Of a stretch of 64,000 bases of DNA, positions 16,142 through 57,505 are shown piece by piece. Every line of letters starts with the position of its first letter. Position 1 is the first letter of the stretch. The stretch spans positions 1 to 64,000 of the forward strand of contig CANTFL010000536.1 in assembly GCA_947650285.1 (NCBI GenBank). The letters are read 5' to 3'. This stretch comes from Hyaloperonospora brassicae (lineage: Eukaryota; Oomycota; Peronosporomycetes; Peronosporales; Peronosporaceae). The notes beneath the pieces were generated by a model. It saw only the letters and a list, made by a program, of their open reading frames with translations. It did no database searches and was not told the DNA's origin. Made by a program: the position numbers and the translations under genes.

Positions 16142-16535
16142 TGTAACGGGGCAGCCCGTTACATGAAAATTGTCATTTAGAAGATAATGACAATATAGAA
16201 TATGAAATTGAATATTCTTTTAACAATATCACCAATAGTGGTGAAATTGATGGGTCGACCAAAGAGTCTGTTCATTGGTTGATATCTTGATGATATCAAC
16301 CCACCAATCGCCGCAAGACGCGCGCAATGAGTGGTGACGAGACGTCACCATACAATCAGTTATATTAGCATAATTAAGTTAAGTCAAGCAGAGAGACAGT
16401 AGTTAAAAGACTTAATTATATTAATATAACAGTTCTGCTTTAACCTTACCTCCGCTTCCTCGTTTGCCTCGTGTACGTCTGTCGGGCGCACCGAAACCCT
16501 TGCGTTAAGTTCACGCAAGGGTGTGCCCCGTTATA
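16142..16535 (+). mobile_element. Solo LTR, Gyp-A family, with TTTAT target duplication
   Basis: It starts TGTAACGGGGC and ends GCCCCGTTATA. It is flanked by TTTAT at 16137-16141 and 16536-16540. It carries the family's series of hairpins: GTAACGGG/CCCGTTAC at the very end (16143-16162), ATTGTCATT/AATGACAAT (16169-16194), GAATAT/ATATTC (16198-16217), and GGTTGATATC/GATATCAACC (16277-16301). No internal element sequence lies next to it. Confidence 0.92.
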
Positions 16536-30420: not shown

Positions 30421-32757
30421 AAAAACGTGTATATATGTCTTATATTGGTTGTAGTATATTAAATATATCTTTAAGTATGTTAGCAACGCCGGTAACACTC
30501 AAGAGTCCGGTAATTGTACGGGTCTGGCCACCGTAGACGACAGCTTCCTTGGTGGCCTGGCTACTTGTTGCAGACATTTAAGCAGTTGTGCTCCTTTAAT
30601 TGGGTTCTCGTCTCCGCTATATTTTCACCAACCTACAGCCTAAGATGCCCTAGGCTTGATTGGTAAATTGTCTCAACACTTACTCAGACATCCAATCTTC
30701 ACGTTATAGATATTCGATTAAGCTAAATCCACAATATTGTTACTACAACACTGCTGAGTTGTAGCCCATACTTCGTTTGGTTCATATAGTTGTATTGTTC
30801 TTGAGCTAATTAATCCCGCACTTTCCAATCTATACCTCTCTTTATCGAGGCCGGGAACTACCATTTTTACGACCTTGTTCTCAGACTATTCAATTTGGCA
30901 CATGAAAGGGTGTCTACACTTCACGCGTATTCTGCCAACGGTATAGATATGTATAGCGCTACTCCGCCATTGACGGGAGCGTAGCGTGCTCATGACGGGC
31001 CATACCTTGACATTGTTATCCGAGGATCGGGAAATTGAGAACGGTGGACATAATAATACACCACACGCGCCCCAAAATTGGTGAGGAGGGCTAGAGACAA
31101 AAGGTTCGGGCCTCGTAATGAAGCGACAGCTGGGCGAACGTGTACGCGGCTGCGGCCAGGGAACTCGGCGATTACCCGACCTTGACAATACAAACCAATA
31201 GGAACTAGCGAGTTGGCTGATGAGACTCGACGAGTTTCGCCGACTAATACTTGACTAATTTGTCGACAGGAACGGGTAGAGTATACCGCGTTATTTCCGC
31301 GCGAAATTCGCGGACCTGACCTGGATGACTTGTCCATCCGAGAATCGACGACGTTTTTGTCCCTCTATACCTTACTTATTGTCATACCTTACATAGAGCG
31401 CATTAAATCACTTCAGCACCAACTTATGTCCGTATGGCCGTGCCTGAACATCAGAAACCTGGATCAGGTGCTTCCGGTAAAGTGATATTTACGGTATAAA
31501 GACGTTCCAGATACACATCCAGCAATCCATGGCTGGAAAAAGGGAAAATTATCTTTATCGAATAATTTCGTGGGAGCGCTTAAAGCCAGGATGATGAGGA
31601 TTATTTGCTATGCTAGGAAGTTTGTGTGCACGACTTCGAAATACGCGGGTGGTGATGCTCCATATTTTTTATACGTACCTATACCCATAGGAAAAATGCA
31701 ACTTCACTGTTGCACATGCGCAAGCCGCATCACATCAACGAGAAGAAGTTGGATTTACATGTATTAAACGTAGTGAAAATTAGAAAATCTGATGTGTGTA
31801 TTCTCAAAATATTTAAGGGTGCCAAGCAATCCAGTGACATCACCGCCACAAGACAACTCACTTTTATCCCGGATCGAGCGACGGCTGCAATCCCGCATGC
31901 TAGGCAGATTCTAATTTGCAGTACGCCTGTAGATTTTTGTATCTGTCTACTTTGGAGTGCGACGAATTTACTTTTCCTCGATGTCTATGACGTAGCCGGA
32001 AGCAACTAATTGTACCTAAAGTTTCGCATTTCCGTTTATATTGTGACGGCTGGCACATTAAGCGATATTTAGGTGTCCACTAAATGGGTCGCAAGCGTAT
32101 TAAATATTCGTTTTAGGTAGAGCTGCAACACGGAGGCCTGCTTCGACCACCACAAGCTATAAACGCATATCTTGCTCAATGGCAAAGATATTGTGGTTCA
32201 CCAATTTGGCACTACCCACGAGTTTTTGTTTTTTACATGCTACTTGTATAATCCCTCGGGTACAAAGTGTGGCGAGCGTAACGGCAGCTTTCAGCTTTAG
32301 CATCGCCGTGAATTTTCCAATTGGTCACTGGAGTTTCCACACGTCAGTGTGTAGACTTTATTCCCTTCGACGGTTCAGACCGGCTGCTCTATGTGCTCGT
32401 CTGGCAGAATACAAAGGCTCAGCTAAAGGCGACTGAAAATTGGTGATTACTGAAAAGAAAGTTATCGAAAGAAGCTATCCGGGCTCGGCAATCGAGTAAT
32501 GAACGCCTCTTCTCCTGCTGGCGGAACGTCAACAGGTGCGACTGTTCCCTTTTTGCTGTATACGATCGGGCGGGGAATCTAGGTCCGTATACGATCGGGC
32601 GGGGTAACCTAGGCGATCAAAAGAACAGGCGAATCTCGCAACCCACGGAGGCTCAATCGAATCATTCGTCAGGATTTTCTGTAATTTTTTTGACATCCAT
32701 AGACGGTAACCCTTTTTAGGGGTTTTTGAGCACCACGTATTAGTTTTAAATGTTTGT
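30421..32757. other. Unassigned region before Gyp-A
   Basis: Short frames occur on both strands (30990-31337 minus; 31710-32009 and 32179-32436 plus), with no reliable family match. It holds a short direct repeat at 32558-32604. Confidence 0.35.
32558..32604. repeat. Two-copy 29-bp direct repeat
   Basis: GTATACGATCGGGCGGGG occurs at 32558-32575 and again at 32587-32604, with partly conserved spacers (AATCTAGG versus TAACCTAGG). It is GC-rich in an AT-rich area. Confidence 0.85.
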
Positions 32758-32763
32758 CTACTA

Positions 32764-33175
32764 TGTAATGGGGCAGCCCGTTACATGGAAATTGCCATTT
32801 GAGAGATAACTACAATGGAGAATATGAAGTTGAATATTCTTTGAACAATATCACCAATAGTGGTGATATTGATGGGTCGACCAAAGCGTCTGTTCATTGG
32901 TTGATATCTTGAAGATATCAACCCACCTATCGCCGCAAGACGCGCGCAATGAGTGGTGAGTAGACGTCGTCGTACATTCAGTTAGATTAGTATAATTAAG
33001 CTAAGTCAAACAGAGAGACAGTGGTTAAAGACTTAATTATATTAATATAACAGTTCTAGTTTCCCTAAGACAGTGTTGCCTCTGTCTTACCTACCGCTTC
33101 CTCGGTTGCCTCGTGTACGCGTTTCTGTGCACGATACCCTTGCATTTAGTTCACGCAAGGGTGTGCCCCGTTTCA
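32764..33175 (+). repeat. Gyp-A 5' LTR
   Basis: 412 bp, starting TGTAATGGGGC and ending GCCCCGTTTCA. It differs from the 3' LTR at about 20 positions plus a short indel. About half of the differences lie within the ~25-bp first internal hairpin (about 32790-32815). Confidence 0.93.
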
Positions 33176-33177
33176 CC

Positions 33178-33185
33178 TGGTAGCA
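33178..33185 (+). other. Gyp-A primer binding site
   Basis: TGGTAGCA, 2 nt after the LTR end, is complementary to a TGCTACCA tRNA 3' end, as in initiator tRNA-Met of many eukaryotes. The same octamer follows the Gyp-B 5' LTR at 50940-50947. Confidence 0.6.
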
Positions 33186-33213
33186 ATTGTAGTCCTTCCA
33201 GCGACCACCTCTA

Positions 33214-33243
33214 CATCATCCACCATTTACATGGTGGATGATG
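33214..33243 (+). promoter_or_regulatory. 13-bp perfect hairpin enclosing the gag start codon
   Basis: CATCATCCACCAT (33214-33226) pairs perfectly with ATGGTGGATGATG (33231-33243) around the 4-nt loop TTAC. The second arm begins with the gag ATG, so the start codon would be base-paired in the transcript. Confidence 0.85.
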
Positions 33244-34379
33244 AAGAGACCTTTCACGCCACGCGTGAAGGTTTTACCCATTTGAGTGACAATGAATGGG
33301 GTGCGGTAGAACGAATGAGTTCTACCGTAGGCGAGCTCGCCATTAGCGCCATGTTGGAGTCTCTAGAAAGACACCAACAACATGCCGCTATCGCCAAGTT
33401 CATTCAAAATAAACTTGTCGCCGAAAGGGAGAAAGTAGCCTTGCTTCACCAGCAAGGGTCTCAACAGGCCGAGCAGTTGAGAGAACTCGGTGCTCAACAA
33501 ACAGAGCTGTTGAGACAGCAGCAATTCCATACTGCTGTGGGCGGGACGGCACATGCGCGTCGTCCCGAAGTCATAAAGGTTGACATCTCAAAGTACAGTG
33601 GAGTCCCGGAAGACTCCCTGTTATTGTGGTTCGTCATACTCTACAGTGCCTTGAAGGCACGTCGTGTCAACGATGAGCAAATGAAACTCACCTATTCTCA
33701 GACCCACTTGGCAGGACGTGCCAAAACTTGGGACTTAGGGCTCGAGAGTAGCGACCCAAATGTGTGTAGGTCGCTAGATGACTTCAAGGCCGGGCTCAGA
33801 CTAACGTTTGAGCCGCCACGGGCTGAGTTCAGGGCTCGTTCAGAGCTCCTGAAATTCAAGCAGGGTAAGCGTGATGTGCACGCTTACGCACAACATATAC
33901 GACTCCTTGCGAGTAGTATAACTGCTAACCCAGTACATGAACACACGTTGATTACGGTGTTCATGCAAGGGCTCGCAGAAGGGCCCGTCAGGAGCCACCT
34001 GTTCCGCCTTGAGCTGAATACGCTGGAAGAGGCGATATCAGCCGCGGAACAGGAAGACTTTAGCATGAGACAGGCTCATGCTAGCTCAAACTCTTATCGT
34101 CCACCGAGACGACAAGAGATCGGAGGTCCAGAACCAATGGACCTCTGCTATGTTGAGAGAGAAAGACCTCGATCTTCAAACAACAAGCGAATGCAGAGGT
34201 GCAATCGCTGTCAGAAGTTAGGGCACTACGCATACGAGTGTAGTGCTCCACGCCCAGTACCAAACAGTACTGAGCGAAATGGTCGTCCATTCGCCAGAAA
34301 GGGCAATGGGCGTGGGTCCAGCGCTGTTGCGAAGCCGCAACAGCGAGACGGACCATCAAAAAATGGTCGGGGTCAGTAG
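33231..34379 (+). CDS. Gyp-A Gag (capsid/nucleocapsid)
   Basis: An intact 382-codon frame encoding the particle-forming protein. An N-terminal glutamine-rich coiled-coil-like segment (residues ~60-105) is followed by a retrotransposon Gag capsid domain (~115-280). The latter includes WFVILYSALKARRV, LAGRAKTWDLGL and a FEPPRAEFRARSELLKFKQG block. A single zinc knuckle CNRCQKLGHYAYEC lies at residues 324-337, then a basic Gly/Arg tail. The start is the ATG at 33231, the first after the primer site. Gag ends with TAG at 34377-34379, and pol is reached by a -1 shift about 15 nt earlier. The coding sequence contains many perfect inverted repeats, for example at 33304-33327, 33865-33887, 33936-33965, 34061-34083 and 34323-34344. 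Confidence 0.93.
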   Translation: MVDDEETFHATREGFTHLSDNEWGAVERMSSTVGELAISAMLESLERHQQHAAIAKFIQNKLVAEREKVALLHQQGSQQAEQLRELGAQQTELLRQQQFHTAVGGTAHARRPEVIKVDISKYSGVPEDSLLLWFVILYSALKARRVNDEQMKLTYSQTHLAGRAKTWDLGLESSDPNVCRSLDDFKAGLRLTFEPPRAEFRARSELLKFKQGKRDVHAYAQHIRLLASSITANPVHEHTLITVFMQGLAEGPVRSHLFRLELNTLEEAISAAEQEDFSMRQAHASSNSYRPPRRQEIGGPEPMDLCYVERERPRSSNNKRMQRCNRCQKLGHYAYECSAPRPVPNSTERNGRPFARKGNGRGSSAVAKPQQRDGPSKNGRGQ

Positions 34380-34397
34380 GGGCGGAGCTCCCTACTG
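34358..34397 (+). promoter_or_regulatory. Probable -1 ribosomal frameshift site (gag to pol)
   Basis: The slippery heptamer A AAA AAT (34358-34364) is in the correct gag register (..A|AAA|AAT). After a 9-nt spacer it is followed by a hairpin with arms CAGTAGGG (34374-34381) and CCCTACTG (34390-34397), which contains the gag stop TAG. Slipping back one base enters the pol frame at TGG (34364-34366), which is open from there. An AGTAGG/CCTACT hairpin occurs at the homologous place in Gyp-B (about 52018-52042). Confidence 0.75.
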
Positions 34398-37300
34398 ATC
34401 CAGCAACCGCAAGAGAATTTGCAAATCTCTTGACGAAAGTTGCTCCAGATACACAATCATTGTGTGTCTCTGCACCTGGTGATGACGGTTCGCTCATCAC
34501 CTTGAAGTTGAAAGCGACAAATGATTTGTCGCTTCGTGCCCTAGTTGATTGTGGGGCGTTGGACAACTTTGTTCGTCGCCAGTCGCTAGAGGATCAGGAA
34601 GTCTCAACTTCGTGGAGCGGGAGATCCCCTCCAACGAGGATTACGGTGCGCCTTGCAACAGGCGCATCGATCAATGTAAAGAAACGTATAGTAGGAATCC
34701 ACTACACTTTAGAGGGCGAACAGTACGATGATGACTTCATCGTACTAGATCTGGATGACAAATTTGATGTCATCCTGGGATTACCTTGGCTCAGAAAGTA
34801 CGAGCCAAGGGTGAGCTGGCAGCATCGATCCGTGAAGATGCCTGCCGCTTGTTCATCAGATGGTCATCTGATGAACATCTTGGAGCGTCCACAAGCGTGT
34901 GGAGGTTCTGCGAGTGAGTGCGATGGCCTCACTTGCGGTACGGTCGTTAGCACGACTGCACAAGATCACAGTGTAGTTGATCACTACACTGTGGAGCAAG
35001 CTCCCGGCGGCTGTACAGAAGTACAGGCTGCGCCGAAGGTCCACCACTCGAATAAGTCGAGTGGACCGGGACATGGATGCATGCCTAGCGGGCAGCATCT
35101 TCGCCAAAAGAAAACTGTTGCCTTCAAAGGGCAACATGGACATCCTAGGTCGACTGGAGAGTCGAACGTAGAGGATCGGTGCCTGACTGTGGTTACACAG
35201 TCACAGTCAGAAGACGTCGAGGGAATAAGTCCCCACGTAATTGAGGAAGGAATTCCTCAAGAGTCACTTGCTGAGGGATCAGGCCCTCAGCAACCTGTGG
35301 AAGCAAGTTCCCAGGAAGAAACCGAGACGTTGAACGTCTTGGTTAATGACGGATCAAGCGTAGGCGCTTATACGCTTGATCTGATTGTGCCTCCAAAGTT
35401 AACTTCGGAGATAACTCAGTTGCCAACGCTAGAACCGAAACGGTTCTTGCGTGATCTGCGCAGTGGCAAAGTCAAGCAGATCTGCATACTCGTCACGGAG
35501 GATGAGTATGTGGCTGACATTCGGTCGGCAACAGCATTTGCTGAGAACGAACGAGTTCTCAGCAGCTCATCGATGGACAAAAGTGTCCTCGATGAGAAGA
35601 CTCGGATTGAGCGATACACGTCTCAATCCTGGGAGTCACTTCAGACAAATCCTTTGTATAAGGATTTGATCGAATTCAGGGATGTGTTCCCTGAATCTGT
35701 ACCTTGCGAGTTGCCTAAAGACAAAGGCACTCGACACGAGATCGAGCTCAAACCGGGCTCGAAGTACTGTGTCATGAAGCAGTGGCCACTGCCTCGTGAA
35801 CAAGTACTAGCGATCGACAAGTTCTTCGCCGATCGCTTAGCAGCGGGCCATGTGAGGGAATCGACATCCCCTCACAGCTCTCCGACCTTCTGTGTGCGAA
35901 AGGCCACAGGAGGGTGGCGGATAGTGCACGCATTCAACAAGTTGAATGCTGCAACGGTACCGGCTCAGACGCCGATACCGAGGAAGGACGTAATCATAGA
36001 TGGTATGTCAAAGAGTACCATCTTTTCGTCCATGGATCTGATGGATGGATTCTATCAGATCCTCATGCGTGAACGAGACATCCCGTTCAAGGCAGTGAGT
36101 ACCCCCAGCGGGATGCTGTGGGAGTGGCTAGTGATGCCACAGGGGCTGAGTAATGCCCCTGCAACATTCAACAGATGTGTCACAAATCTGTTGAGACCGG
36201 TGCGAGACTTCGCACCGAGTTACTTCGACGGTGTGCTCGTTCATAGCCGGGCTATGGACGGAAAGACCGAAGTTAAAGTTCACAGAACTCACGTTCGTCA
36301 GGTTCTTCAACTTATGCGCAAGTATAAGTTGTACGCCAACCTCAAGAAGTGTATATTCGCGGCTAGCGAAATACCACTTCTTGGGTGCATCGTCGGTAAA
36401 CACGGCGTACGCCCCAATCCCGAAAAGATCAAGGCGATCACCGACTGGCCAGTGCCAGTCGATGTCAAGGGACTACGGAAGTTCCTTGGTCTAGCGGCGT
36501 ACTTGCACAAGTACTTGCGCAACTACGCCGAGATGACTGTTCATCTTTCTTGCTTGCTCAAGAAAGATGTGAAGTGGTCATGGAACGCTGAGTGCCAGCG
36601 TTCCTTTGAAGGTATCAACAAAATCTTGATGAAATCGCCCATCTTGGCGATTGCAGATCAGGATAGATCTTTTCATGTGGTCTATGACGCCAGCGATTTC
36701 GCAATCGGCTGTGCGTTAATGCAGTTTGATGCAGATGGCGCAAAGCGCGTCATCTGTTATCAGTCGCGTCAGCTGCAACAAGCTGAGCGTAATTACCCAG
36801 TGCATGACAAGGAGCTCCTTGCCATGAAGTACGCACTGGCTAAGTTTCGGGTCTAACTCTTGGGAGATAAACCGTTTGTTGTCTATACGGACCATTCGTC
36901 ATTACGCACGGCCGTAAACAGCCCACACCTCTCGCAAAGGATGGCGAGGTGGCTGTCTTTCTTCGCGGAGTATAACTTCTCCGTGGAGTATAAACCGGGA
37001 CGAATCGATGTCGTCGCTGATGCGCTTTCGCGCCGGCCCGATTTCGAGCCGGACGAACAAATCAACAGTGAGGATAAGCCCACTGTTGCGACACTGTCAG
37101 TCAGTGTCCCGTCGTCAAGTAAACTTGACGACGTACGAAAGGCATACGCGGAAGATAAGGATCTTCTGCGATTGATGGATCATCTGGTGAATCCATCCAG
37201 TAAATTCATGAGGGATTTACCGGCTTTGTACCGATCCTCATCGGATCGGTATAGTACGCGCAACGGATTGCTGTACTATACAGCTGTTGCCAACGACACG

Positions 37301-38822
37301 CCTCGTGTCGTCGTACCCGCTCATCATGATTTGCGTTTACGCTTCATGTATGAGTGTCACGATGCCCCAACAGGTGGTCATCGTAGTAGAGAAAAGACTT
37401 ACCTCACGGTAAGTCGTGACTTCTACTGTCCACGCCAGTATCAGTTTGTACGCAAGTACATGCGTGCTTGCGAGGTTTGCCAACGGGTGAAGCCTAGCCC
37501 TTCATCCCGTGCACCATTGCAGCCTCTGCCTGTTCCGACAGAGTGCTGGCAGTCCGTCTCAATGGACTTCGTCTTCGGGTTTCCCGAAGACGCTCACAAG
37601 AATAATGGTATTCTTGTGTTTGTTGACCGATTCAGCAAGATGGTCCATCTTGCTGCAGTCCCTGAGTCGATCAAGGCTCAAGGTTGTGCTCGTTTCTTTC
37701 CAGACAAGGTCTTTAGACTCCACGGGTTACCCCGTGAACTCGTATCCGACCGTGACCCTCGGTTCACGGCGACATTTTGGCAAGCCGTGTTCCGTTCTCT
37801 CGGAACACGATTGAAGATGTCTACTTCCGACCATCCCAAAACAGATGGTCAGACGGAACGTGCGAATTGTGTTCTCGAAGAGATCCTTGGAGGATATGTC
37901 CACTCCTTTTCGAGTTGGAGCGAATTCCTACCCATGGTGGAATTCGCCATCAATAATTCGGTGCATGCTTCCACACAGCACACACCGTTTTACGTGAATG
38001 GCCTACGCCATCCACGTGTGCCCACACTTCTAGAGTGTGCCTCTTGGATAAGGGGGGAGGGACTCGCTCGAGCAAAAACCGTTTTGGCTCTTGCTCATCA
38101 CGTGTCGACGTTAACGTCGTCACGTATGATGCCGATGTCGATCAAGTCGACATCGATGAAGAAGATCACCTCAATAATAGCGATGACGCTATTATTGACT
38201 TGGATGATGATGACGATGCTGGTATATTCAGCATCGTCAACGATTATGCCAGCGAGGAAGAAGACAACCTCGCTGAAGAAGAGAGCAATCTCTTAGCAGT
38301 GCGCACGAAGCGCACTGCCAGACAAAACAAAGAGTCAGCAGAGAACTTCCTGCTGACTCGAGAAGCGGTAGTCTGTTTCGTTCAGGAATCCTTCGGAAAT
38401 GCGGTGGACCGCCCGAAACGGAACGCAGACAAGAATGGAAGAGCAAATGTTCTTTCATTTAAGGTGAACGACCTAGTACTACTGTCTACGTTAACTTACC
38501 TAGACATGCAGTCACTATTGTCGGCATTAGTAAACTACTGCCTAAGTACATTGAGCCATTTCGAGTGTTTCATCGCAAGGGCAATGCATACACACTCGAA
38601 TTGCCACGTAAGATGCGCACGCATCCTACGTTTTACGTGGGGAGGCTTAGGCCGTACTGTCAGTACGAGCCTTCTTTTTCCGATGAAGATAGCTTCCACG
38701 TTCAAGAACATCCATCAAGTTCTTTCGTTCGCGTCCAGACGATCCGTCTGGTCGCGCAGATATACTACCTCGGAACTCAACCGAGATATCTCCCCGCGAG
38801 CTGTCGCCAGCTCGCCGAATAG
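34364..38822 (+). pseudogene. Gyp-A Pol (protease, RT, RNase H, integrase), broken
   Basis: The frame runs from the -1 shift point. The protease motif is LVDCGALDNFV (catalytic Asp at 34547). RT lies at ~35700-36600; its catalytic YFDD box reads YFDG (36221-36232), so an essential Asp is missing. RNase H spans ~36660-37040 and is interrupted by TAA at 36854-36856, with the frame continuing unchanged. The integrase HHCC finger is at ~37340-37490, and the DD35E residues at 37565, 37748 and 37856 are intact. Two 1-nt losses, near 38045 and 38488, shift the acidic integrase linker and the C-terminal module (FYVGRLRPY at ~38630-38660). The last frame ends with TAG at 38820-38822, overlapping the antisense ORF by 108 bp. 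It is probably inactive, although most domains are well conserved. Confidence 0.93.
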
Positions 38823-40250
38823 GGAGCGAACATCATGCTCAACCTGAAGCTGCGCTGTGGCATAATCGGCGCGATCCCTCGCCCGATCAGCCTCGTGACC
38901 CTTGCGGTTCTTCCGCACGGTATCGGTCAAAGCGTAGCGCCGGTCGCGCTCGTGCTTCAAGTCATCGCGCAACTCATCGATTGCGCGATCCATCTCGTAA
39001 GGGTCGAGATGGTGAACCGAATCATCTGGAGGAGGTCTTTCCTCCCCCACCACATCATTTGGTGGATGCGCACGGTGATCAACGCTTTCTAGTGGAGCGT
39101 ATCTTGAATCACCGTGACGATTAAGAATCAAGGACGAGCTACCTCGTCCAGTGGCGGGGGTATCCACCCTCTTGGAACAGCTGGGAGCCCCGCTCTCAGC
39201 TGTTGATGGATGTTGAAGGTCTCGTCCGCCAGTATGACGAGACCCATCCGATGAGTCCTGTGGCCCATCGGTAAACACGCGCTTTTGGCACTTGTAGACG
39301 GATTGCAAGTTTGCAATCGCGTCACGCATCTCAGCCGAGATGTGTGCCCTTCCCCAGGGCGAAATTAGGGAATACACATCCCTATGTGCACGCTGCGAGT
39401 TGTCAACACAACTCGCACAATGGTCTCCCCATGTGAGGCAAGGAATGTCTGCCTCACTCGACAAACAGTGCAACCGGTACCTAGCACCGGTTGGCGTTCG
39501 CTTTTCGAACCTGAGACGTGTCGTCTCAAGTTTCTTGAGCCACCCTTCTCGTCCAAAATTCTTTACGTTTTTGACGAACGCGTTCCACGCATCCCAAAGC
39601 GATGCTTTGTCACGCTTTTGATTGCCGTTGTACCATCGATGTCTAAGGAAGACATCGAGATAAATTTCTTCCTCAGCGCGAAATTTCTTCGCGCTGGAAC
39701 TCAAGCCGTGAAGCTCAGTCGCATCGAATAAGGGTATTCGATGGTGTTGGCTTGTCTCGTGATACAAATCATTGATGAGCCGTTCAGGCAAACGACACGG
39801 CTTCAGCTCATCACGCTTCATCATGGTACGCTTGTCGGCACCACGGTTGTCAGTATGACGATGGGTTGCACCATCATCAAGTCGCTCGTGCGAAGGAGCA
39901 CGAGCTGATTGCGGTGATGAGCAAACATACTCATCACCCGATTCGTCATCACTGCCGAACAGAATGTGTTGCAACTCACGAGTCCGTTCGTTCGGCATTG
40001 GCCTTGGCAAACACTGAGGCACCGCAGGTGAACGCGATGCTTCCAAAGGCTTTTCGGATTCAGACACGTCCAACCCGCCAGAATTGATGACCTCTATGTC
40101 AGGGTCATCATGCGCACGCGGTGTGATACCGCGTGCACCTGCAGCACCTGTTGCTGCAGGCGGAGAACGAGCAGCAGACGACGAATCGTCTGTCGCAGAC
40201 GCTGGCACAGGCACAGACTCTGTGCGCCTTGAGACACCCCGCATAGACAT
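38715..40250 (-). CDS. Gyp-A antisense ORF, 511 residues, unknown function
   Basis: An uninterrupted minus-strand frame occupying nearly all the space between pol and the 3' LTR. The N-terminal ~130 residues are Ser/Pro/Ala-rich and probably disordered, with an acidic patch (FGSDDESGDEY, ~residues 97-107). A central region (~150-310) looks globular and contains LRHRWYNGNQKRDKASLWDAW and a GDHCASC cysteine pair. A Ser/Asp/His-rich linker follows, and the last ~95 residues, rich in heptad Leu/Arg/Asp/Glu, look like a coiled coil. I recognise no family. Antisense ORFs in the pol-LTR interval are known from some plant Gypsy elements such as Retand, Ogre and Grande; a link is inference. It is intact although pol is broken. 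The ATG (40248-40250) lies in a hairpin loop. Confidence 0.75.
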   Translation of the reverse strand: MSMRGVSRRTESVPVPASATDDSSSAARSPPAATGAAGARGITPRAHDDPDIEVINSGGLDVSESEKPLEASRSPAVPQCLPRPMPNERTRELQHILFGSDDESGDEYVCSSPQSARAPSHERLDDGATHRHTDNRGADKRTMMKRDELKPCRLPERLINDLYHETSQHHRIPLFDATELHGLSSSAKKFRAEEEIYLDVFLRHRWYNGNQKRDKASLWDAWNAFVKNVKNFGREGWLKKLETTRLRFEKRTPTGARYRLHCLSSEADIPCLTWGDHCASCVDNSQRAHRDVYSLISPWGRAHISAEMRDAIANLQSVYKCQKRVFTDGPQDSSDGSRHTGGRDLQHPSTAESGAPSCSKRVDTPATGRGSSSLILNRHGDSRYAPLESVDHRAHPPNDVVGEERPPPDDSVHHLDPYEMDRAIDELRDDLKHERDRRYALTDTVRKNRKGHEADRARDRADYATAQLQVEHDVRSLFGELATARGEISRLSSEVVYLRDQTDRLDANERT

Positions 40251-40262
40251 GTTAACTATGCG
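40240..40262 (-). promoter_or_regulatory. Hairpin presenting the antisense ORF start codon in its loop
   Basis: CGCATAG (40240-40246) pairs with CTATGCG (40256-40262). The 9-nt loop ACATGTTAA contains CAT, the complement of the antisense ORF start codon (40248-40250). Confidence 0.7.
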
Positions 40263-40367
40263 AGGTCAAGCGGAAAGTGAATGGAACGGACCCAACAAAT
40301 GCTCCCTGTCCTAATGGTGGCCAACGGGCGGCCGCCATATTTTTGATAGTCACACGTTGACTATCCG

Positions 40368-40381
40368 TTAAAGGGGGGTGA
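40368..40381 (+). other. Gyp-A polypurine tract
   Basis: The run TAAAGGGGGGTGA lies directly before the 3' LTR start (GTAACGGGGC). It follows an 8-bp hairpin GATAGTCA/TGACTATC at 40345-40365. Confidence 0.7.
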
Positions 40382-40787
40382 CGTAACGGGGCAGCCCGTT
40401 ACATGGAAATTGTCACTTTAAGGAAAGTAACAATTAAGAATATGATGTTGAATATTGTTTGAACAATATCACCAATAGTGGTGATATTGATGGGTCGACC
40501 AAAGAGTCCGTTCATTGGTTGATATCTTGAAGATATCAACCCACCTACCGCCGCAAGACGCGCGCAATGAGTGGTGAGTAGACGTCGTCGTACATTGAGT
40601 TAGATTAGTATTATTAAGCTAAGTCAAACAGAGAGACAGTGGTTAAAGACTTAATTATATTAATATAACAGTTCTAGTTTCCCTAAGACAGTGTTGCCTC
40701 TGTCTTACCTACCGCTTCCTCGGTTGCCTCGTGTACGCGTTTCGGTGCACGATACCCTTGGTTCACGCAAGGGTGTGCCCCGTTACA
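40382..40787 (+). repeat. Gyp-A 3' LTR
   Basis: 406 bp. Its first base is C where the family has T, then GTAACGGGGC; it ends GCCCCGTTACA. Hairpin 1 has 11-bp arms with one mismatch, ATTGTCACTTT (40409-40419) and AAAGTAACAAT (40424-40434). Confidence 0.93.
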
Positions 40788-40792
40788 TAATA

Positions 40793-42513
40793 CAGCTTAC
40801 CAAAAGCGATCACATATATCGAGTAATCACTTTACTCGACTAAGGCAGCATCTCAACCGAACTGCAAACCGGCTGCAGTTGAACGAATGTCATAACCTTC
40901 CGCATATACTACGTCAAACTATCACCATACGTGGGCACTTTCTAAATAGACGGAGTTTTTTGGAATGTGGTCCTAACGACACCGCGGTGGCTCTAGAATC
41001 AGAAACGGATGCCTTTTACACCTCTTTATCATCATCATACGAGATGACGCTTACGATGGTTCGGTCAAAAGAAGCAAAATATCAACCAGCAGCAGAGGGA
41101 CCTTTCTAGGCAGTCGCGGGGACGAAGCGGGACACCGAGACTAAGCGATCATATAAGTGCAAGGATCATAACCATGCGCTTATAGACGTCATTGCTCACG
41201 AGAATATATTTGCTGCGGATGCTTCTTCTCTCTTTGACTACAATATATAATAGTTTTGTATGGAGTACGGATATTGTATCTCGCGTTCTGCGGCTAACAG
41301 TGCGATTGCGAAAGCAACAAAATATAGGATATACGCTTAACATTGACACACAAATAAGACCAAGCTTACACTTAAAACGAATCTTACATGCTTTCTTAAT
41401 TTTGCGATCTTGACCTTTACACGGCGATGTGCCTACCCACCTGACGGGAGGATCTGGTAGCGGAGTCGCACGAAACTTTACAGCTTGCTGTCCTCTCATA
41501 ATAGCCGCAAACGTCGCATACCAAGTTCCCACCCCGGGATACCTTATAAATTTGGGATGCATTCGTCGTTGTATCTTGATAAAGCTTCGATGGCCATGGT
41601 AACGACGCGCTCCCAGATTTCCGACAGGCAACATCCACTTATTCGCGATGATAAATGGTGAATACTAAGTCTATGTCCGGGAAAATCATGTGCATGAATA
41701 TATGGAAGGAGGGGTGGTAGATCCTCCGGCCTGAGTCGATAGTGTTTCCATTTAAGATGCGCTAGCTATGTCGATCAAACAAGAATGAAATGCCTCGTCA
41801 GATATAATGGCAGACCCTGACCAACATAAGAATTATCCAATCTCACCTTCTATCTTTCATAGGGACGCTCATGGAAATCAGGTTGCGATACGACCACCTC
41901 TCGATCACTTACGCTTCCAAAACATTTAGGATCAAAATGAACGCACAAAGAGACTGCTCAAGGTATGATCAGACGCGTCTGCTACGATAGAAGATACACC
42001 TGTACCAAAGTTCACACAACAAATATATGAAAATACAAGTAATGTCATTGAATTTCCATTCCTGTTAACTAATTCCCCTTGATGCTGGGATTTACCCTGC
42101 GAGCAATACGAGATGTCAAAAATTGTGCATTTAAATTTCTTGTATCTGGCATCACACCAAACACGACAATGTAATTGAAAGCTGTGCATTGGCTGTACCG
42201 CAACGCTAGACAGGCAAAGTGGTCACATGATATGATATAAAGTGACTATACCCAACAAGTGGAATGATTCAGTAATCTCCGACCCGACTGGCTGCGTGCA
42301 GCTGTCGTCTAACTGCTAAAAACCTTAGTCATTGAAGAGTCCTTTATTATGTGTGAATTACTACCGAAGGCTGAAGCCACTAAGGTCGACATAATATAGA
42401 AGTTGCTCATTCGAGCGCTATCTTATGCCACTTCTTATTAGAGTTATCACGGCTGTTGTCATTGATATAAAAAAACTGCCAATTTAAATTAAAATTATTC
42501 ATCCGAGACGGTC
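40793..42513. other. Unassigned stretch
   Basis: No recognisable gene. A 161-codon minus-strand frame (41149-41634) and a 76-codon plus frame (40879-41109) show no familiar motif and are not called. Confidence 0.4.
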
Positions 42514-47640: not shown

Positions 47641-49070
47641 CGACACCCTTCTCGCAAGATATCATTATGTAAGTAATATATATATATATAGGGGTCATCG
47701 CTAATGAAATTGATGTCTCAAGCTAAGGAAATGTTTATCGCAAATACAAAAAATGAAGATCAGGCTGGCGAATTTCTCTATGAATACGGGAAATTACATA
47801 TAAGCGCACGCACCATCAGACTTATGTTTAATTAAGAAGGCTACTAATTTTACTTCCTATCGACAAAACGCGCTTCTTTAAACATCTCACGACGAACAAC
47901 ACGTAACAAAAATCCCCGCTCTTTCACCTAGAAGCCTTATTATCTTATGGTCTCGCGTTGGCACAATGCTGCCCGAGGATTATCGTTACCTCATATATAT
48001 AATGTTCATTGACGCGGTGATTTTGATGCCCGGCGACTGGACACTATAGGTCGTACGCGTACCTGACGATACATTACCTTCTAAATTACTCCTCGATAAT
48101 GTCGGCGCTGGTCTGCAGTCAATATTGGAGCAACGACGTTGCATTGGCTATATTTTAAAACATCCGTCCCATGACGGATAAGGTTCTGATGGTAGAACTG
48201 TGCAATGGCCTTGTCTAGAACATGTGTTTCGGCGTCTTGACCACCCCACAGCAGTTATACGCTTTGGACAAGAGTGGTCAAGATCTCTACTCGAAAAATT
48301 AATGATTGTTTACTAATTGCCTATCGACATCAGACCCATTATTCGTATTTGGCAATCTCGGCGCGTGAAAGGACGCCATAGTCTGTACTAATGTAGCTGC
48401 TCCGAACGCTATGACGCAATTTAGCCTCAAGACAGAAAATTAAATTCAATGCCTGTCCTTGATCTAATTTAAAATAATATAAATTAGAATTTAAAGCCTA
48501 CCAAAAACTTTAGATTGCGACCTAGTCTAAGACACTCCAACGAAGCCCATGGATGTGCGGATGCGCGTTAAAGCCAATGCCTCGTGCTGCATGGCCTTGA
48601 CGTAAATCCTTTGCAATAGATGTCGGCGGTCTATCTAAAGTGAGTGCATTAAAAGGTTTAAATTTTAACTTCAGGGTCTTGCTTAATGCAAGGATCGAGT
48701 TCCGGGGCACAAACGTAACGAGACACTAGTTTAGGTATATTCCTTGTGTTGATAACAAGCACCGCTCGTGTGCAGTAAATGGTGAGGGTTTAATTCTCTA
48801 AAATAACAAGCCAACGTCCTATAAAAAACTTTTTCGACCCACTAGATGCTCTGCTACCACCCCAGTTACCTCTTTACGAGCTAGTAAGGCATTTCAAAGA
48901 AGCATATATACCAACACCTTATATTTAAGCTATCTGGTCTGGTAGGCATCCAAAGCATCCGGTAAGCAACGTCCGTCTCGGGGACAGATTTCTTCGAACA
49001 AGATGGGGGGTGTTGCTTCGACTTGAAGGTGACAGTACCTTCCATTAGTGGTGTTTGGAGGATTAGGATA
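47641..49070. other. Unassigned stretch between LINE remnant and right arm
   Basis: No recognisable gene. A short (TA)n run lies at 47676-47690. The right arm of the inverted repeat begins near 49071. Confidence 0.4.
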
Positions 49071-49206
49071 AACAGGACAAGTACTGGCGCCAAACAGATT
49101 CAATCGAGCGGCATCCGTCAAGCCGACGCCGCACCCTCTTTCCGATGTAGAGGAGGGAAACAAAACCCAATTAGTTGCACTGACCGATAGTAAGAACCAC
49201 ACAGGC

Positions 49207-50463: not shown

Positions 50464-50937
50464 TGTGACGGGTTTATACATCGACTGGTAGTTGACAATA
50501 GGTGTGGTGCACACAAGGTGTGGGATATCCATCTAAGTAATAATGGAACACAGTATCAATTGTTGAAGACTGATGTCTGTCAACCATTGATTACGACATG
50601 TTTTGAGAGGTTTATTTCGGACATTAGCGAGTAGGTTAATTACTTTGTTCTAAGGTGTTCTTTTAGGTTAAAAGAAGAAATTAATTCAGCTCCCATTTTG
50701 ATCCGATAGACACATGCCTCTTTGAGGCGTATTGATCGGAAGAGCTAGCAACGCCTGTAAAGGTAACTGCTCTTGAGTACTCTGTGCTGTGATTCTCTTA
50801 AATCGTTTGGTCCCCCTAGAACAGGGACCCTAAGCTCTCTGAGCTCGTTGACTCTCTGATTCGGGTTCGTAGAACCATAAGTTTCTCGTAGAGCGTTATC
50901 TCTTCCTCTGACTTAAAAGCTGTATAGCATCGCTACA
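50464..50937 (+). repeat. Gyp-B 5' LTR
   Basis: 474-bp direct repeat of 57506-57980. It starts TGTGACGGG and ends CGCTACA, then a TGGTAGCA primer site at 50940-50947. Confidence 0.88.
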
Positions 50938-52189: not shown

Positions 52190-54700
52190 TCAATCCTAAT
52201 CGACTCCGGAGCATCATGCATTTATGCTCGACGTCGTTCCCTTTAAAGAAGTCAGCGATACGCTGAAGCTTATAAAGCGCATTAAGGTAATTCGATCACC
52301 GTTCGTCCAGCGACTGGTAGTCGCTCTACGGTGTCTAAAGTTTAGTTGAACTTAGGTGTGAAGTTTTTGGACTTTGACAGCATGAAACGCTGGTATGTCC
52401 TCAATTTGGGCTCGAGATATGATCTCATCCTGGGTATGGCTTGGCTTGAACGCCATGATCCATGTATCGATTGGAGGTCTAAGACCTAAGGCGTCACGGG
52501 CAATGTTTCTAGCGAAGCTTTGGAGAGTCATGAACCCACCTTTGCTATGCGACAAAAGCGCTATTAGCGCATGCCATTGACGGAAGATTTAAATGTGCTG
52601 GACATTGGTATGTCAGAGTTAATTAACTCTAATGTCAATGACATTAAATTTGAGCGGAGCTCTTTCACCGTATGTGAAGGAAGTTGTATTCCGTTAAGTG
52701 ATAATCGTTGTGGTCAATAAGCCACTGCATGCTGCAGCTACGGTTGGCCTAGGGCCGAGACATCAAGAATGTAATTCCCCTGATGTGAGTGGGGTGGCAC
52801 GTGAAATTCCATCGAGTGAGGGTCGCCGAGATGCCACACAACTGAATGTCAGTAATGACATTGTTGGAGAAAGGCAGAAGCATATAGGGCCAGGTCCGCA
52901 TGGTGTACGTGAAGTGGTACGTGTGAATACACTATCCGAGAGCTTATGTCTTAAACGACATCTGGTGAAGAGTCACGTAACTCGAACGCATCACCCAGAG
53001 CTGGCTATGGTAGATGGCAACGACGGAAACTCTACTGTCCCGGCCTTTAGGAGGCAAAGGTTTCTTTGAGGAAAAAAATCCCAGCGTCGTGTGGCAACTT
53101 TTAAGCGCCAAACGTCCGAGGTGTCACTTAGTTTTGATAGTAATACTACACAATATACACTTTTCAATAAATTGACTGGCCATGTTAACGGCAACATTAG
53201 TCTTTAGACCCTTCCATTCTTATCTACTATCTTTTAAATAGACGAAATGTCTGACGGCGAATTTAGCCAAGCCTTGCAGGCAGGACAATTATCCAACTTC
53301 GTGGTCATTCGGCCGGCTTATAAGTTAAACTCATCCTCGTTTTCGGGCGAGTTTGTCCTTGAGGACACAAAAGCGGAATTAAATGCCCGTAGTGGATCTT
53401 CGATCCTTAATGATCCTCTTGATCCGTTTTATCCTTTGGTAAAGGAGTTTCAGGACGTGGTGTTTCACAACCCAACGTCCGTCTTACCTCTCGATAGAGG
53501 TGTACGTTTTTAATTGACTTGGTTCCTGAAACTAAATACTGCGTGACACGGCAGTGGCCTTAACCGAAGGAACAGTGTGGCGCCATTGACGACTTCTTTC
53601 GTAGAAAGCACGCGGCAGGAATGGTACGTGAGAGCAAATCTCCCCATTCCACACCGATCTTCTGTGTCAAAAATCCCAATGGGAAGTGGCGCATTGTTCA
53701 TGATTTCAATAAGCTTCATGCGGCCACCATCCCGGCTCAGACACCAATTCCGAGGAAGGATGTTCTTCAGAACAATATGACAGGATGTACAATGTACAAT
53801 GCGCTCGACCTAGTCGATGGTTATTACCAGCTGATTATGCGAGAGAGCGATATTTTGATGACACCGGATAGCACTCCGAGCGGTATGCTCTGGGAGTGGC
53901 TTGTAATGCCGCAAGGGTTATCAAATACCCCGGCTACATTCAATCGTCTTGTGACACAATTGTTCGGACCTCACCGAGGATACGCACAGACGTACTTTAA
54001 TGTAATCTTTTCCCATAGTCGTGCTATCAACGGTCGGTCAGATGTGGTTAATCACATTGATAATTTACGAGCGGTGCTCGAGCGCATGAGCACAAACAAG
54101 TTGTACGCCAATGCGTCTAAGTGCATCTTTGGTGCCGAAGGAAATCCTCTTCTAAGTGCGCTATTGGTAAGCGAGGCTTTAGAGCGGATCCCGCTAAGGC
54201 CGGTTCCAAAGAACCAACAGGACTTACTTAAGTGGCTTGGCCTTGCCAATTACTTGCACAAGTACAGTGCGAATTACGCAGATATGGCTCGGCCATTATC
54301 CAATCTTCTTAAAACGAATGTGGAAAGGTGCTGTACTAGCACTGAGAATGATGCTTTTCAAGCAGTAAAGAAGAGTCTGCTTCATGCGCGAATCTTGGCT
54401 TTGCCTGATCGTGATCGATCTGTTAGTGTCGTCTGTGACGCATCCGACTTTGCCATAGGCAGCGCCCTGTTACAAACAGATTCTGATGGACGGGAACGCG
54501 TCATTGCGTTTAAGTCCCGGCAGCTGAAGACTGCAGAAAAGAACGAACCTGTTCATGACAAAGAGATACTTGCAATGAAGTATACTTTCGTCAAATTCAG
54601 TGTTCATCTTCCTGGCTCTAAGCCGTTTGTGATCCATGATCATGCTTCACTACACACTGCGATTAGTAGTCTCACGTCTCCCAGAGAATAGCTTGTTGGC
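52190..54700 (+). pseudogene. Gyp-B protease, RT and RNase H remnant
   Basis: A retropepsin-like DSGASC is found near 52203-52220. RT and RNase H follow in a long open stretch 53621-54691: FCVKNPNGKWRIVHDFNKL, then EWLVMPQGLSNTPATFN. The catalytic box reads YFNVIF in place of YFDDIF, so both catalytic aspartates are gone. RNase H shows CDASDFAIGSALLQ. Stops and frameshifts break the N-terminal side (52300-53600) and the region after 54691. It is the same Pol family as Gyp-A at moderate identity. Confidence 0.85.
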
Positions 54701-54979
54701 TTTCCTTCTTTGCCGAGTACAACTTTGAGGTGTAGCATAAGCCGGGCAAGCAGAACACTTTGGCTCATGCGTTGTCACGCAGGCCTGACTATGAGCTTGT
54801 CGTCGTCGGTCACTGACCTAATTCGTACGGCATATGCCAAGGATTAACACTGTGTAGCTCCGCTACGTGCTTTAGTGAGCGAGGAGTTTAACGACTCGGA
54901 CATAGCATTGTCGGCACGATAACGTGCGAGGTTACATCGATATTCTATCGATTAAGGCCTGTTGTGCTATAGCACGGAT

Positions 54980-56720
54980 GTAGAGGATACCTCTCGCATC
55001 GTTGCCCCTCATGATGAGGAATTAAGTATCGGATCTTCTATGAGGCACATGATACTGCGTTGAGTTGTCATCTTGGTCGTGAGAAGACCTACCGCTCAGT
55101 TAGTCAATGCTAATGGTGGCCTAAACTATACAAATGGGTGAGCACATATTTTCATACGTGTAAAACCTCACCCCACGCGGCCGCGCCGCTGGCAAGATTG
55201 CCTATACCCAAGGGGTGTTGGGAGTTTATTAGTATGGACTTTCTGTTCGGTTTACCGAAAGATCCGTACGGAAATACGGGTATTGTCGTCTTTATTGACC
55301 ATTTGAGCAAGATGGCTCATTTAGCGGCGGTACCGGATACCATTGATGGTGAGGGTACAGTTACGCTGGTTATCGATCGCGTGTTTAGACAACACGGTTT
55401 GCCGTTTGCAATCGCTCTGATAGAGATCCTCGCTTCACTAGGAAGTTTTGAAAAACCATCTTCAAGGTGCTCAGCACAAGTTTGGACATATCCACAGCGG
55501 AGCATCCGCAGACTTATAGTCAAACCGAGCGAGAGAATCGCATCATCGGTGACATCTTGCGCAGTGTTTTCTCTAAAACTCCTAAGAGTTGGAGTTCGAT
55601 GCTTTCTGTCGTTGAGGTTGCGTTGAATAACGCTGTTCCCGCCTCTACGGGCTTAACTTCGTCCTACGTGAACGGTCTCACACACCCTCGTGTTCCAGGA
55701 ACGCTCCCACTCCGTGTTCAGGGCTTGGTGGGGGAGGGGTTGCCGATCGGCTTGCTATTATCAGCCCTGCTACTGTTCAAAAACAGGTAAGAGAGTTTCT
55801 CGAAACGCGAATGAATGTCTTACGACATGTGAGTGACGCACTGGCTGATAGCCAAGACAAGCAGAAGGAACAAGCTGATGCTAAAGGCAGAGGTTGCATT
55901 GAACGTTATAAGGTCGGATACCAAGTTCTACTCAATGCTAAAAACCTACCTACAAATGTAGTGTCTGCCGTCTTCAAGACAAAGTTTCGCCCGCGCTTCA
56001 TTGGGCCATTCACGGTCGTCGCCAAGAAGGGACTTGCGTATACGCTCAACCTTCCGCACAAAATGCGCACACACCCCGTGTTCTACGTTGGCTTGCTTAA
56101 GCCGTTTTGGGATCCGTCCAACGTGAACTTGGAGGCGCTTGCGCCGTATAGTTTGGCCTTGCCATCGGTTGCTAAATCCGTATCAGAAGGTCCATCTGGG
56201 CCTCCATCCGGGCTTGGCCCAACTCCAACACCTGGACACGGGCTTGCATCAGGTCAAACGCACTCTGGGTCGTACTCAATGTCTCACAGAGACCACTCAG
56301 ATCGAGAAGCACCTTCCCATGCTCCTTCTTCGGTATACCGACCACCTCTGACGCTGCTCGAAGAGCAAGGGAATTGCCAAATTTATGTGAAGCGACTACT
56401 GAAAAGACGTCGTCGTCAGGGTCAATACCAGTATCTGGTGAAATGGCGAGGTACCTGGAGTCGGAAAACTTGTAAGAGTTTGAAATACCCCTTCGGCAGG
56501 ATTGCCCATACGCCCTTGATGTTTTTGAACATCGTGGCAGGGGTCATCCCTCGACCAAGAGCGCTTGTCACCAAAAGTGGTGGAGGCAGGTGGGTAGTTG
56601 GGTACCGCTTGACCAACACCCACATTAACCGGCACAGCTGGATCATAGCGTGTGCGAGTTCGCAACTGGCCTCTGGCCTTGAGCTTGGCGTAATCATACC
56701 GAAGCTTTCGTTCTAGACGA
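54980..56720 (+). pseudogene. Gyp-B integrase with C-terminal chromodomain, broken
   Basis: Integrase core pieces: SMDFLFGLPKDPYGNTG (~55230-55290), then shifted frames with AEHPQTYSQTERENRI (~55500). A C-terminal module follows (FRPRFIGPFTVV, YTLNLPHKMRTHPVFYVGL; ~55985-56100). After a Pro/Ser/Gly linker, residues from ~56372 to 56480 (IYVKRLLKRRRRQGQYQYLVKW) fit a chromodomain, which in chromoviruses directs integration to heterochromatin. Several frameshifts separate the parts. Confidence 0.82.
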
Positions 56721-57460
56721 ACATCTGCCACATCGGCACTTGATCTGAGAGCTAACACGCTGCTGAGGTGGCATTTTCGATGCACCTAGCGAACAAAAGC
56801 GTTGTCTTCTCCCTCCTGAGATTCGCCTGCAAATAGGAGGATGGGTATATTCTTCATCGTTAAAACCGGTGCACCCCGTGCTTGCGTGTCAAGTCGCACA
56901 ATGTATTGACTCTGAGTCGTCAAGTGAGGTTGCAGATACCTCTCGCGAAGTACCTGTAGACTCGCCACCTCATCGGAAGATTTTGGCTCAGCGCCAATGG
57001 CCCACATTGCCAAACAACGACCTGGCGTTTGACGTATACGCTCTTTCACACTGAGTGGGGTGAACAGATAGCCACGACGACTCTCAAGGGCTGCAGCACG
57101 CTACATACGGCGCTGAGCGCTCTCCTCTCCTTGGATAGCCAACTGTTGTTGCTGATCGAGCAGATTGGTGATGATGGCATCGCCTACGATGGGTGTTTGA
57201 TGCGGCGCCGATTACGTGGTGGCTTCGCCACGCTCGGCAAATGGGTTCGGTGCAGTATGATGCGGTGCCTCTTGCACTGGTGAGTCGGACATTGTCCTCT
57301 CTTCACCATGGATATCGGTATCGCTACCATTATCCACCTCCTCATCGATGCCGAGGTAAGACGAGATAGCCGAGGACTCATGAGGTGGTGGTGCCATGTA
57401 GTTCTGTGTTTTGCCAACCGTGAGGTTGAAGCGCACATACACCGTCCTCTTTGAGGAAAG
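56396..57460 (-). pseudogene. Gyp-B antisense reading frame, broken
   Basis: On the minus strand, between the chromodomain and the 3' LTR, one phase stays open for roughly 350 codons except for three stops. These are a TAA near 57209, a TAG near 57100 and a TAG near 56785, each one C-to-T step from a Gln codon. It includes YLFTPLSVKERIRQTPGRC and PILLFAGESQEGEDNAFVR. I do not recognise it with certainty; the latter part is vaguely Gag-like. It does not resemble the Gyp-A antisense ORF in sequence. Its start is uncertain. Confidence 0.45.
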
Positions 57461-57492
57461 AATTCGATTAACGTTTTGTGGTAACGTCAGTC

Positions 57493-57505
57493 TGATGGGG
57501 TAGGG
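57493..57505 (+). other. Gyp-B polypurine tract
   Basis: TGATGGGGTAGGG immediately precedes the 3' LTR. Confidence 0.6.

Follow-up and report, generated by a model that had tools for sequence, protein, structure and literature searches.

The window is the whole 64,000-nucleotide stretch of Hyaloperonospora brassicae DNA that was analysed. It contains the element Gyp-A at 32764-40787 (Table 1). Direct LTRs were found (32765-33064 against 40383-40682, 94%), and the Pfam domains followed the order PF03732, PF08284, PF00078, PF17917/PF17919, PF17921 and PF00665 across three frames. With direct LTRs and gag followed by protease, reverse transcriptase, RNase H and integrase (PR-RT-RNaseH-IN), Gyp-A is a Ty3/Gypsy LTR retrotransposon. 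Relatives of its proteins, 68-92% identical, were named in Peronospora, Pythium, Phytophthora, Globisporangium and Aphanomyces, and its antisense ORF was conserved in other oomycete sequences. The structural model of the antisense protein was of low confidence (mean pLDDT 54.7), and no PDB match was found for it at E ≤ 0.001. No Rfam family matched 32700-40850 at the gathering score, and no relatives were found in the viral-contig and genome-contig collections.

Table 1. Features of Gyp-A and related elements in the window
Feature	Position	Strand	Remarks
Gyp-A 5' LTR	32764..33175	+	Perfect hairpins at 32846-32871, 32899-32923
Gyp-A gag ORF, 382 aa	33231..34379	+	Retrotrans_gag and zinc knuckle
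Gyp-A protease/reverse transcriptase/RNase H frame, 808 aa	34430..36856	+	
Gyp-A RNase H end and integrase frame, 478 aa	36860..38296	+	
Gyp-A antisense ORF, 511 aa	38715..40250	-	No Pfam match
Gyp-A 3' LTR	40382..40787	+	Perfect hairpins at 40383-40402, 40464-40489, 40517-40541, 40684-40707
Example hairpin	34850..34877	+	13-bp arms, 2-nt loop in window copy
Example hairpin	34967..34993	+	11-bp arms
Example hairpin	35268..35293	+	Compensated pairs among genomic copies
Gyp-A-type LTR without internal region	16142..16532	+	5 perfect hairpins
Older, broken member of second Gypsy family	52500..57500	+	Different ladder

Perfect inverted repeats were counted over 32764-40787 and compared with the mean of 10 dinucleotide-preserving shuffles. 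Gyp-A contained 115 repeats with arms of at least 7 bp and loops of up to 12 nt, against 5.1 in the shuffles. With loops of up to 20 nt, there were 82 against 1.7 at arms of at least 8 bp, 49 against 1.1 at 9 bp and 22 against 0 at 10 bp. A sequence-only reading of this DNA had reported over fifty inverted repeats throughout the element. The dense distribution was borne out, and the number was an undercount. All 14 hairpins that it cited lay exactly where it had placed them, and four had longer arms than given (34322-34345, 10 bp; 34850-34877, 13 bp; 35352-35381, 11 bp; 38171-38198, 12 bp). For 9-bp stems it had put the chance expectation at under roughly one per 8 kb, which was approximately what the shuffles gave. 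The density was also far above codon-preserving shuffles, the comparison it had proposed, in all four frames. With 50 shuffles per reading frame and arms of at least 8 bp, gag had 7 hairpins against 0.46, the PR-RT frame 29 against 0.82, the IN frame 15 against 0.38 and the antisense ORF 17 against 0.72. The stems were perfectly Watson-Crick and mostly 8-10 bp long (about −12 kcal/mol), with loops mostly of 4-8 nt and a span mostly of 20-30 nt. In the copy L015, every part (LTRs, sense genes and antisense gene) carried 12-17 hairpins per kb, and the LTR opened with a 9-bp hairpin formed by its first 22 bases. The hairpins avoided one codon phase, in which only 14 of 92 fell. This shows coding limits on the hairpins and is compatible with a mutational origin too.

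The rest of the window was counted at arms of at least 8 bp and loops of up to 20 nt. As had been claimed, the Copia sequence lacked the ladder (1 against 0.6 in shuffles at 4200-9800 and 0 against 0.6 at 61000-64000), with a small surplus of 7-bp arms in the former (8 against 3.1). Counts were 2 against 1.6 at 52500-57500, 8 against 3.2 at 41000-52500 and 28 against 6.6 at 10000-32700. Several AT-rich hairpins contributed to the last count, as did the 5 of the Gyp-A-type LTR at 16142-16532. Twelve 4-kb loci at hand-picked positions served as the genome background, and nine of them were near background, with 0-3 hairpins of at least 8 bp each. Two loci (L037 and L042) contained Gyp-A-related sequence, and L039 showed a small excess that lay partly within simple repeats.

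A different ladder was found in the second Gypsy family. Its hairpins had 4-5 bp arms and loops of 3-4 nt (about −4 kcal/mol), and those with 5-bp arms and 3-nt loops numbered 25 against 4 expected at 52500-57500. Pyrimidine-purine pairs closed 62 of 80 triloops. The fraction of stem places shared with Gyp-A was 0.19, as expected (0.19). Covariation in this family did not go beyond the controls (7 of 480 pairs against 3-8 per slide), and the arms gave 0.097 against 0.111 in the same analysis. Selection on the second-family ladder was thus not well shown.

The ladder is a trait of the whole Gyp-A family: it was present in all 20 further full-length copies, with 88-118 hairpins each. The counts fell with the divergence of the copy (rho −0.85), the most diverged copies having the fewest, which indicated that hairpins decay after insertion. 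When stems were defined in a third copy, divergence was 3.2% in arms, 6.6% in loops and 5.3% outside. The variant spectrum of 21 Gyp-A copies was expressed per 1000 sites for arms and outside. Singletons were nearly equal (188 and 213), variants in 3-5 copies were at 18 and 43, and those in at least 6 of the 21 copies were at 6.9 and 32, being 4.6 times rarer in arms. At 4-fold sites, shared variants per 1000 were 45 in arms against 114 outside in gag-pol, and 53 against 169 in the antisense ORF. Arm codons compared with proteins of other species were more conserved in six and less conserved in three of the nine proteins tested, out of 120 listed.

The sequence-only reading had named covariation of the arms between copies as a check. 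Two-sided Watson-Crick states numbered 19 within the 21 copies against 3-10 in slides. Two G-C pairs of the hairpin at 35268-35293 had become A-T in some of the 21 copies: 35275/35286 in 6 of them, 35276/35285 in 2. One G-C pair of the hairpin at 34967-34993 was changed to A-T on both sides in L047, a diverged relative of 74-86% identity in which the stem places were kept with compensation. When 19 of 116 poorly aligned hairpins were dropped, L047 had 15 compensated pairs among 884 against 12 among 5304 slid pairs (p = 6e-7); without this alignment filter the signal was weaker (22 of 962 against 16 of 1363 slid Watson-Crick pairs). In addition, arm GC decreased with arm length (rho −0.39), from 0.60 at 7 bp to 0.44 at 11 bp, a trend that was absent in shuffles. 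The greater length of AT-rich stems speaks for selection acting on the stability of the helix. These results made it very probable that the Gyp-A hairpins are kept by selection for a structured nucleic acid.

The best overall explanation, with a probability of about 0.5, was that Gyp-A carries a selected genome-scale ordered structure that would work on the single-stranded element and shield its RNA. The structure is made up of short, perfect, closely spaced local hairpins accommodated via codon choice, and selection on helix stability very probably maintains the stems in lineages that are still transposing. The hairpins would act in a single-stranded form of the element. The full-length genomic RNA is the likeliest such form, and a plausible one. 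The fold energy of Gyp-A lay on average 39-50% below shuffled controls. By folding locally, the RNA might offer no long open targets to the host small-RNA machinery, and it might also avoid long duplexes with the antisense transcript of the element itself. Shielding from small-RNA machinery is an idea already put forward for RNA viruses with structured genomes. By analogy, a shield function of the Gyp-A hairpins is a real possibility, at somewhat less than even odds. About 44% of the 21-nt windows of L015 touched no hairpin with arms of at least 8 bp, so shielding by such stems alone would be incomplete. The idea that the hairpins are small-RNA-sized units was also considered, as the small RNAs of oomycetes measure 21 and 25/26 nt according to passages of PMC4791657 and the Gyp-A span is near these sizes; it was dropped because the typical second-family hairpin spans about 13-14 nt.

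A second function would be packaging. The hairpins would be dispersed packaging or assembly sites, the Gag of each family would read its own hairpin geometry (stems of 8-10 bp and loops of 4-5 nt in Gyp-A, stems of 4-5 bp and loops of 3-4 nt in the second family), and many weak contacts would select and condense its own RNA. The two families differ in stem places, and each has stem and loop sizes of its own within fairly narrow limits, the Gyp-A Gag carries a zinc knuckle, and many stem-loops are spread along the element in L015 and the other copies. In MS2 and other viruses, multiple dispersed stem-loops serve as packaging signals, as described in parts of PMC6281560 and PMC4751978. However, packaging signals described in the literature have a recognition motif in common (PMC6281560), and counts of loops and closing pairs gave no clear motif in Gyp-A; in 4-nt loops, purines were in excess (79 of 120). 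G.U and A.C were also equally stringent, and we considered this reading unlikely. Selection on sense RNA is expected to favour G.U over A.C. Among the Gyp-A copies, G.U was not above A.C in shared variants (29 against 30) or in majority interruptions of stems (17 against 18). Stems using G.U and A.C were at 69:56 in L015, 43:45 in L047 and 109:68 in L029, against 115:87 in the MS2 and Qbeta controls and 62:40 in rRNA. In flanking pairs G.U equalled A.C even in rRNA, so that stem/flank G.U tests have little power. A sense-RNA-only structure with G.U tolerance was unsupported by the polymorphism, the related tests being low-powered.

The hairpins might instead act at the DNA level, either in the single-stranded cDNA that reverse transcription produces or as cruciforms extruded in the chromosome. 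On both strands, each of the 26 windows from L015 and from the Gyp-A copy in this stretch had a positive fold-energy excess, which was equal between the strands, tolerated mismatches were likewise symmetric, and the density was even over LTRs, sense genes and antisense gene. However, Qbeta, with a single-stranded RNA genome, was also nearly strand-symmetric (29.0 against 28.5%). No DNA step of LTR elements is known to require hairpins throughout, and this reading was judged less likely again than packaging.

The sequence-only reading had proposed two causes, selection for a structured genomic RNA and template switching during reverse transcription that turns quasi-palindromes into palindromes. 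Of the first, selection for a structured nucleic acid was supported by 4-fold conservation, compensation, GC-length tuning and ladder loss in diverged copies; a role of the structure as genomic RNA is plausible. In the second, arm-to-arm copying would make and keep palindromes without selection; the perfect Watson-Crick stems and the occurrence of two-sided changes are in its favour. However, two-sided changes should be numerous if arms were copied without bias, and where a pair was supported in at least 8 copies, the changes that copies shared were one-sided in 85 cases and two-sided Watson-Crick in 6. The slower evolution of the arms, the loss of hairpins with divergence and the dependence of arm length on GC also disfavoured it, making template switching improbable as the maintaining cause. 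It could have helped to create the hairpins initially. Chance, base composition or codon usage retains a negligible probability as the source of the ladder, being contradicted by both types of shuffle and by the near-background counts in Copia and nine of the 12 sampled loci.

Returning to selected structure, we tentatively considered, with the odds against it, that at least two Gypsy families each have their own hairpin code of stem length and stability, selected in active copies for evasion of silencing or for marking their RNA for their own particles. If true, chromosomal retrotransposons would use a whole-genome RNA-structure strategy written via codon choice. A ladder that protects from silencing would be a transposon counter-defence, and one that packages RNA would be an assembly code. 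With either function, the question of structured genomes would become testable outside viruses. Gyp-A copies of different age represent a natural mutation-accumulation experiment in which selection in lineages still active can be told apart from neutral decay in old copies, and the second family, with another stem length, is a built-in comparison.

Genome-scale ordered structure (GORS) was described for RNA viruses, with a debated purpose and an excess of roughly 6-23%, in the parts of PMC7642675 and PMC3950689 that treat it. Fold-energy excess was given as 15% for SARS-CoV-2 and at most 23.4% for vertebrate RNA viruses, and GORS as consecutive stem-loops that are agnostic about position, in sections of PMC7642675. 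GORS duplexes are mostly longer than 8 bp and not longer than 11 bp, as stated in a section of PMC3950689 from a manuscript in preparation cited there. Like GORS, the Gyp-A structure is genome-wide including coding regions, consists of many consecutive local stem-loops with a fold energy well below shuffled controls and has duplexes of about 8-11 bp. Unlike GORS, it sits in a chromosomal LTR retrotransposon, which encodes reverse transcriptase and integrase, and not in a positive-strand RNA virus, its stems are perfect, and its excess of 39-50% is above the range in those sections. Stem places, poorly conserved between relatives in GORS, are not shared between the two Gypsy families but are kept with compensation within the Gyp-A clade. 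The phages MS2 and Qbeta, which have dispersed packaging stem-loops, are similar in that a coding genome is folded along its length, with both strands alike in Qbeta. Their fold-energy excess was 29-30%. L015 had 14.8 perfect stems of at least 8 bp per kb, the phages 0.8 and 1.4. Gyp-A shares LTRs, gag and the PR-RT-RNaseH-IN order with oomycete Ty3/Gypsy elements, and stands apart from them by its hairpin ladder and by its antisense ORF, which is conserved. In the one open-access library searched, no account of a ladder of this kind was found. On the best reading, Gyp-A represents GORS, familiar in RNA viruses, taken to an extreme form in an LTR retrotransposon.

Gyp-A contained perfect inverted repeats in large excess. 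With arms of at least 8 bp and loops of up to 20, 82 were observed where dinucleotide shuffles gave 1.7; for arms of at least 10 bp the count was 22, and 0 in the shuffles. The sequence-only reading had described dense hairpins throughout this element, and all 14 that it cited were present, 4 of them longer than stated. In each of gag, PR-RT, IN and the antisense ORF, the excess disappeared when synonymous codons were permuted. Copia showed no excess of long stems, as that reading had held, and neither did the second Gypsy element of the window. Among 12 other 4-kb loci of the genome, chosen by hand, 9 were near background, 2 carried Gyp-A-related sequence and 1 showed a small excess, partly within simple repeats. 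A Pfam scan of one ORF each from 10 of these loci gave host gene families in 6 (tRNA anticodon-binding domain, RCC1, lipin, histone, GPI phosphotransferase, FGGY kinase) and no match in 4.

Features of the window and of two sampled loci, with hairpin counts for the remaining window regions
Feature	Position	Strand	Remark
Gyp-A	32764-40787		
Antisense ORF of Gyp-A	38715-40250	-	511 aa
Gyp-A-type LTR	16142-16532		supplies part of the hairpins at 10-32.7 kb
Second Gypsy element	52500-57500		broken
Copia elements	4200-9800; 61000-64000		opposite orientation; same 179-aa ORF
Mirrored short palindromes	10596/60567; 10968/60186; 13081/58091		recur in mirrored order
Window region	10-32.7 kb		28 hairpins vs 6.6 in shuffles
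Window region	41-52.5 kb		8 hairpins vs 3.2 in shuffles
L042/L047, diverged Gyp-A relative	G000:C807:645800-655200		
L037, Gyp-A-type LTR	G000:C40:700000-700390		96-97% identity to LTRs of fetched copies; adjoins 412-codon open frame without Pfam match

The opposed Copia elements and mirrored palindromes suggested that the window flanks may be one large inverted duplication.

The domain order of Gyp-A was that of Ty3/Gypsy (gag, protease, reverse transcriptase, RNase H, integrase), and its LTRs were 94% identical across 300 bases. By eye, the LTR ends start TGTAACGGGGC-like and finish GCCCCGTTACA-like, giving roughly 11 bp of terminal inverted repeat; the 3' LTR starts with CG, not TG, and the flanking TACTA and TAATA look like a target-site duplication that differs at one base. 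In a gag DNA search of the 100.6-Mb genome, 40 of 1859 candidate places were scored, and all 40 were at 94-95% or were the window itself. The protein relatives bearing names were oomycete.

Longer arms were poorer in GC, at 0.44 for 11 bp against 0.60 for 7 bp (rho -0.39, p 1e-6), a trend absent from shuffled sequence, and the mean RNA energy of stems was -11.7 kcal/mol. In L015, another full-length copy, arms were mostly 8-10 bp, loop sizes peaked at 4-5 and the loop count dropped to zero at 18-20; direct repeats of 8 bp were absent at distances under 18. Codon phases pairing position 3 with 3 were avoided in the window copy (14 of 92 hairpins), as expected if stems must fit coding.

The 20 further Gyp-A copies carried 88-118 hairpins each (arm at least 8, loop at most 20), and the window copy, with its 82, was one of the two that had diverged most in the set of 21. 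The more a copy diverged on average from the others, the fewer hairpins it had (Spearman -0.85), and the same held for its private substitutions (-0.82). Hairpins are thus retained while lineages are active and lost once a copy has inserted. When a third copy was used to define the stems, divergence between copies was 3.2% in arms, 6.6% in loops and 5.3% at other sites. Singletons, mostly post-insertion, were at 188, 198 and 213 per 1000 sites in arms, loops and outside, respectively. The corresponding values were 18, 62 and 43 for variants in 3-5 copies, and 6.9, 40 and 32 for those in at least 6. Variants in at least 3 copies, counted at the 4-fold sites of gag-pol, were at 45 per 1000 over 243 arm sites and 114 per 1000 over 562 sites outside, with singletons at 181 and 222; shared variants at those of the antisense ORF were at 53 (95 sites) and 169 (166 sites). 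Therefore, part of the arm constraint acts on nucleic acid rather than protein.

Two-sided Watson-Crick states numbered 19 in the 21 close copies, against 3-10 in slides. L047, with 65 hairpins of arm at least 8, was unevenly identical to Gyp-A (74% in the 1.85 kb of gag-PR and 86% in the remaining 5.4 kb); judged by this pattern, it is perhaps a recombinant between subfamilies. Of the 116 hairpins of L015, 97 aligned well with L047; in these, two-sided changes that were still Watson-Crick occurred in 15 of 884 pairs, whereas slid pairs showed 12 in 5304 (p 6e-7). The contrast was weaker without this restriction (22/962 vs 16/1363).

A different ladder, of 4-5 bp arms and loops of 3-4, was found in the second Gypsy family, where long stems were near background. 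For arm 5 and loop 3, observed and expected counts were 65 and 4 (L029), 45 and 4 (L030), 28 and 5 (L031), and 25 and 4 (window element). The L029 ORF held 94 hairpins (arm at least 5, loop 3-5) against 16 in codon-preserving shuffles. Density was 17-18 per kb in four young copies and 9-12 in three older ones. The four young copies were at least 99% identical, so this family moved recently. Arms gave 0.097-0.099 against 0.110-0.112 outside, there was no compensation beyond controls, and selection on these hairpins was not well shown. Their stem places differed from those of Gyp-A, and the pol proteins were 47% identical. The closing pairs were mostly pyrimidine-purine.

The antisense ORF had 84 scored matches in its own genome (82-100% amino acid identity), 49 without internal stop by hand count. 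Of 18 protein relatives found, 17 were aligned (33-79% identity); they included clusters of 1335 and 524 members named Peronospora matthiolae, and some were on environmental contigs. The conserved core carried a CPCC-like motif in many members. Confidence in the predicted structure was poor as a whole (mean pLDDT 54.7) but locally better for a helical core and a long C-terminal helix, and the model had no PDB match at E<=0.001; the ORF had no Pfam match.

Taken together, we consider it highly probable (about 0.9) that Gyp-A carries selected genome-scale ordered structure, which would act in its full-length RNA. Its favoured function, a shield of this RNA against host silencing, is a tentative reading, somewhat short of even odds. 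It is based on the small-RNA machinery of oomycetes (21 and 25/26-nt RNAs; Dicer-like, RDR and Argonaute genes; PMC4791657) and on the proposal that viral genome-scale ordered RNA structure (GORS) conceals RNA from recognition (PMC7642675, PMC3950689). A service of the hairpins in Gag packaging is unlikely. Action at the DNA level is rated slightly lower still. None of the strand tests could tell sense RNA apart from antisense RNA or DNA: shared variants led to G.T as often as to A.C (29 vs 30), the two were also balanced where stems were interrupted in a majority of copies (17 vs 18), and control sets showed that related tests have limited power. Qbeta folding is likewise nearly strand-symmetric. 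For selected RNA structure in Gyp-A, a transcript of the antisense gene would be complementary to the sense RNA, which might be a reason for folding both strands.

In 300-nt windows, the sense-strand fold-energy excess was 39% in the window copy and 45%, 48.5% and 49.5% in three other copies, with the antisense strand about equal. Sense and antisense values were 17 and 21 for L029 and 10 and 14 for L030; Copia gave 1 and the remaining window 2-7. By the same method, MS2 gave 30% and 23%, Qbeta 29 and 28.5, and rRNA 3-4 and -1 to -2. With a similar, not identical method, PMC7642675 gives 15% for SARS-CoV-2, 7.5-10.7% for HCV and 23.4% at most for vertebrate RNA viruses.
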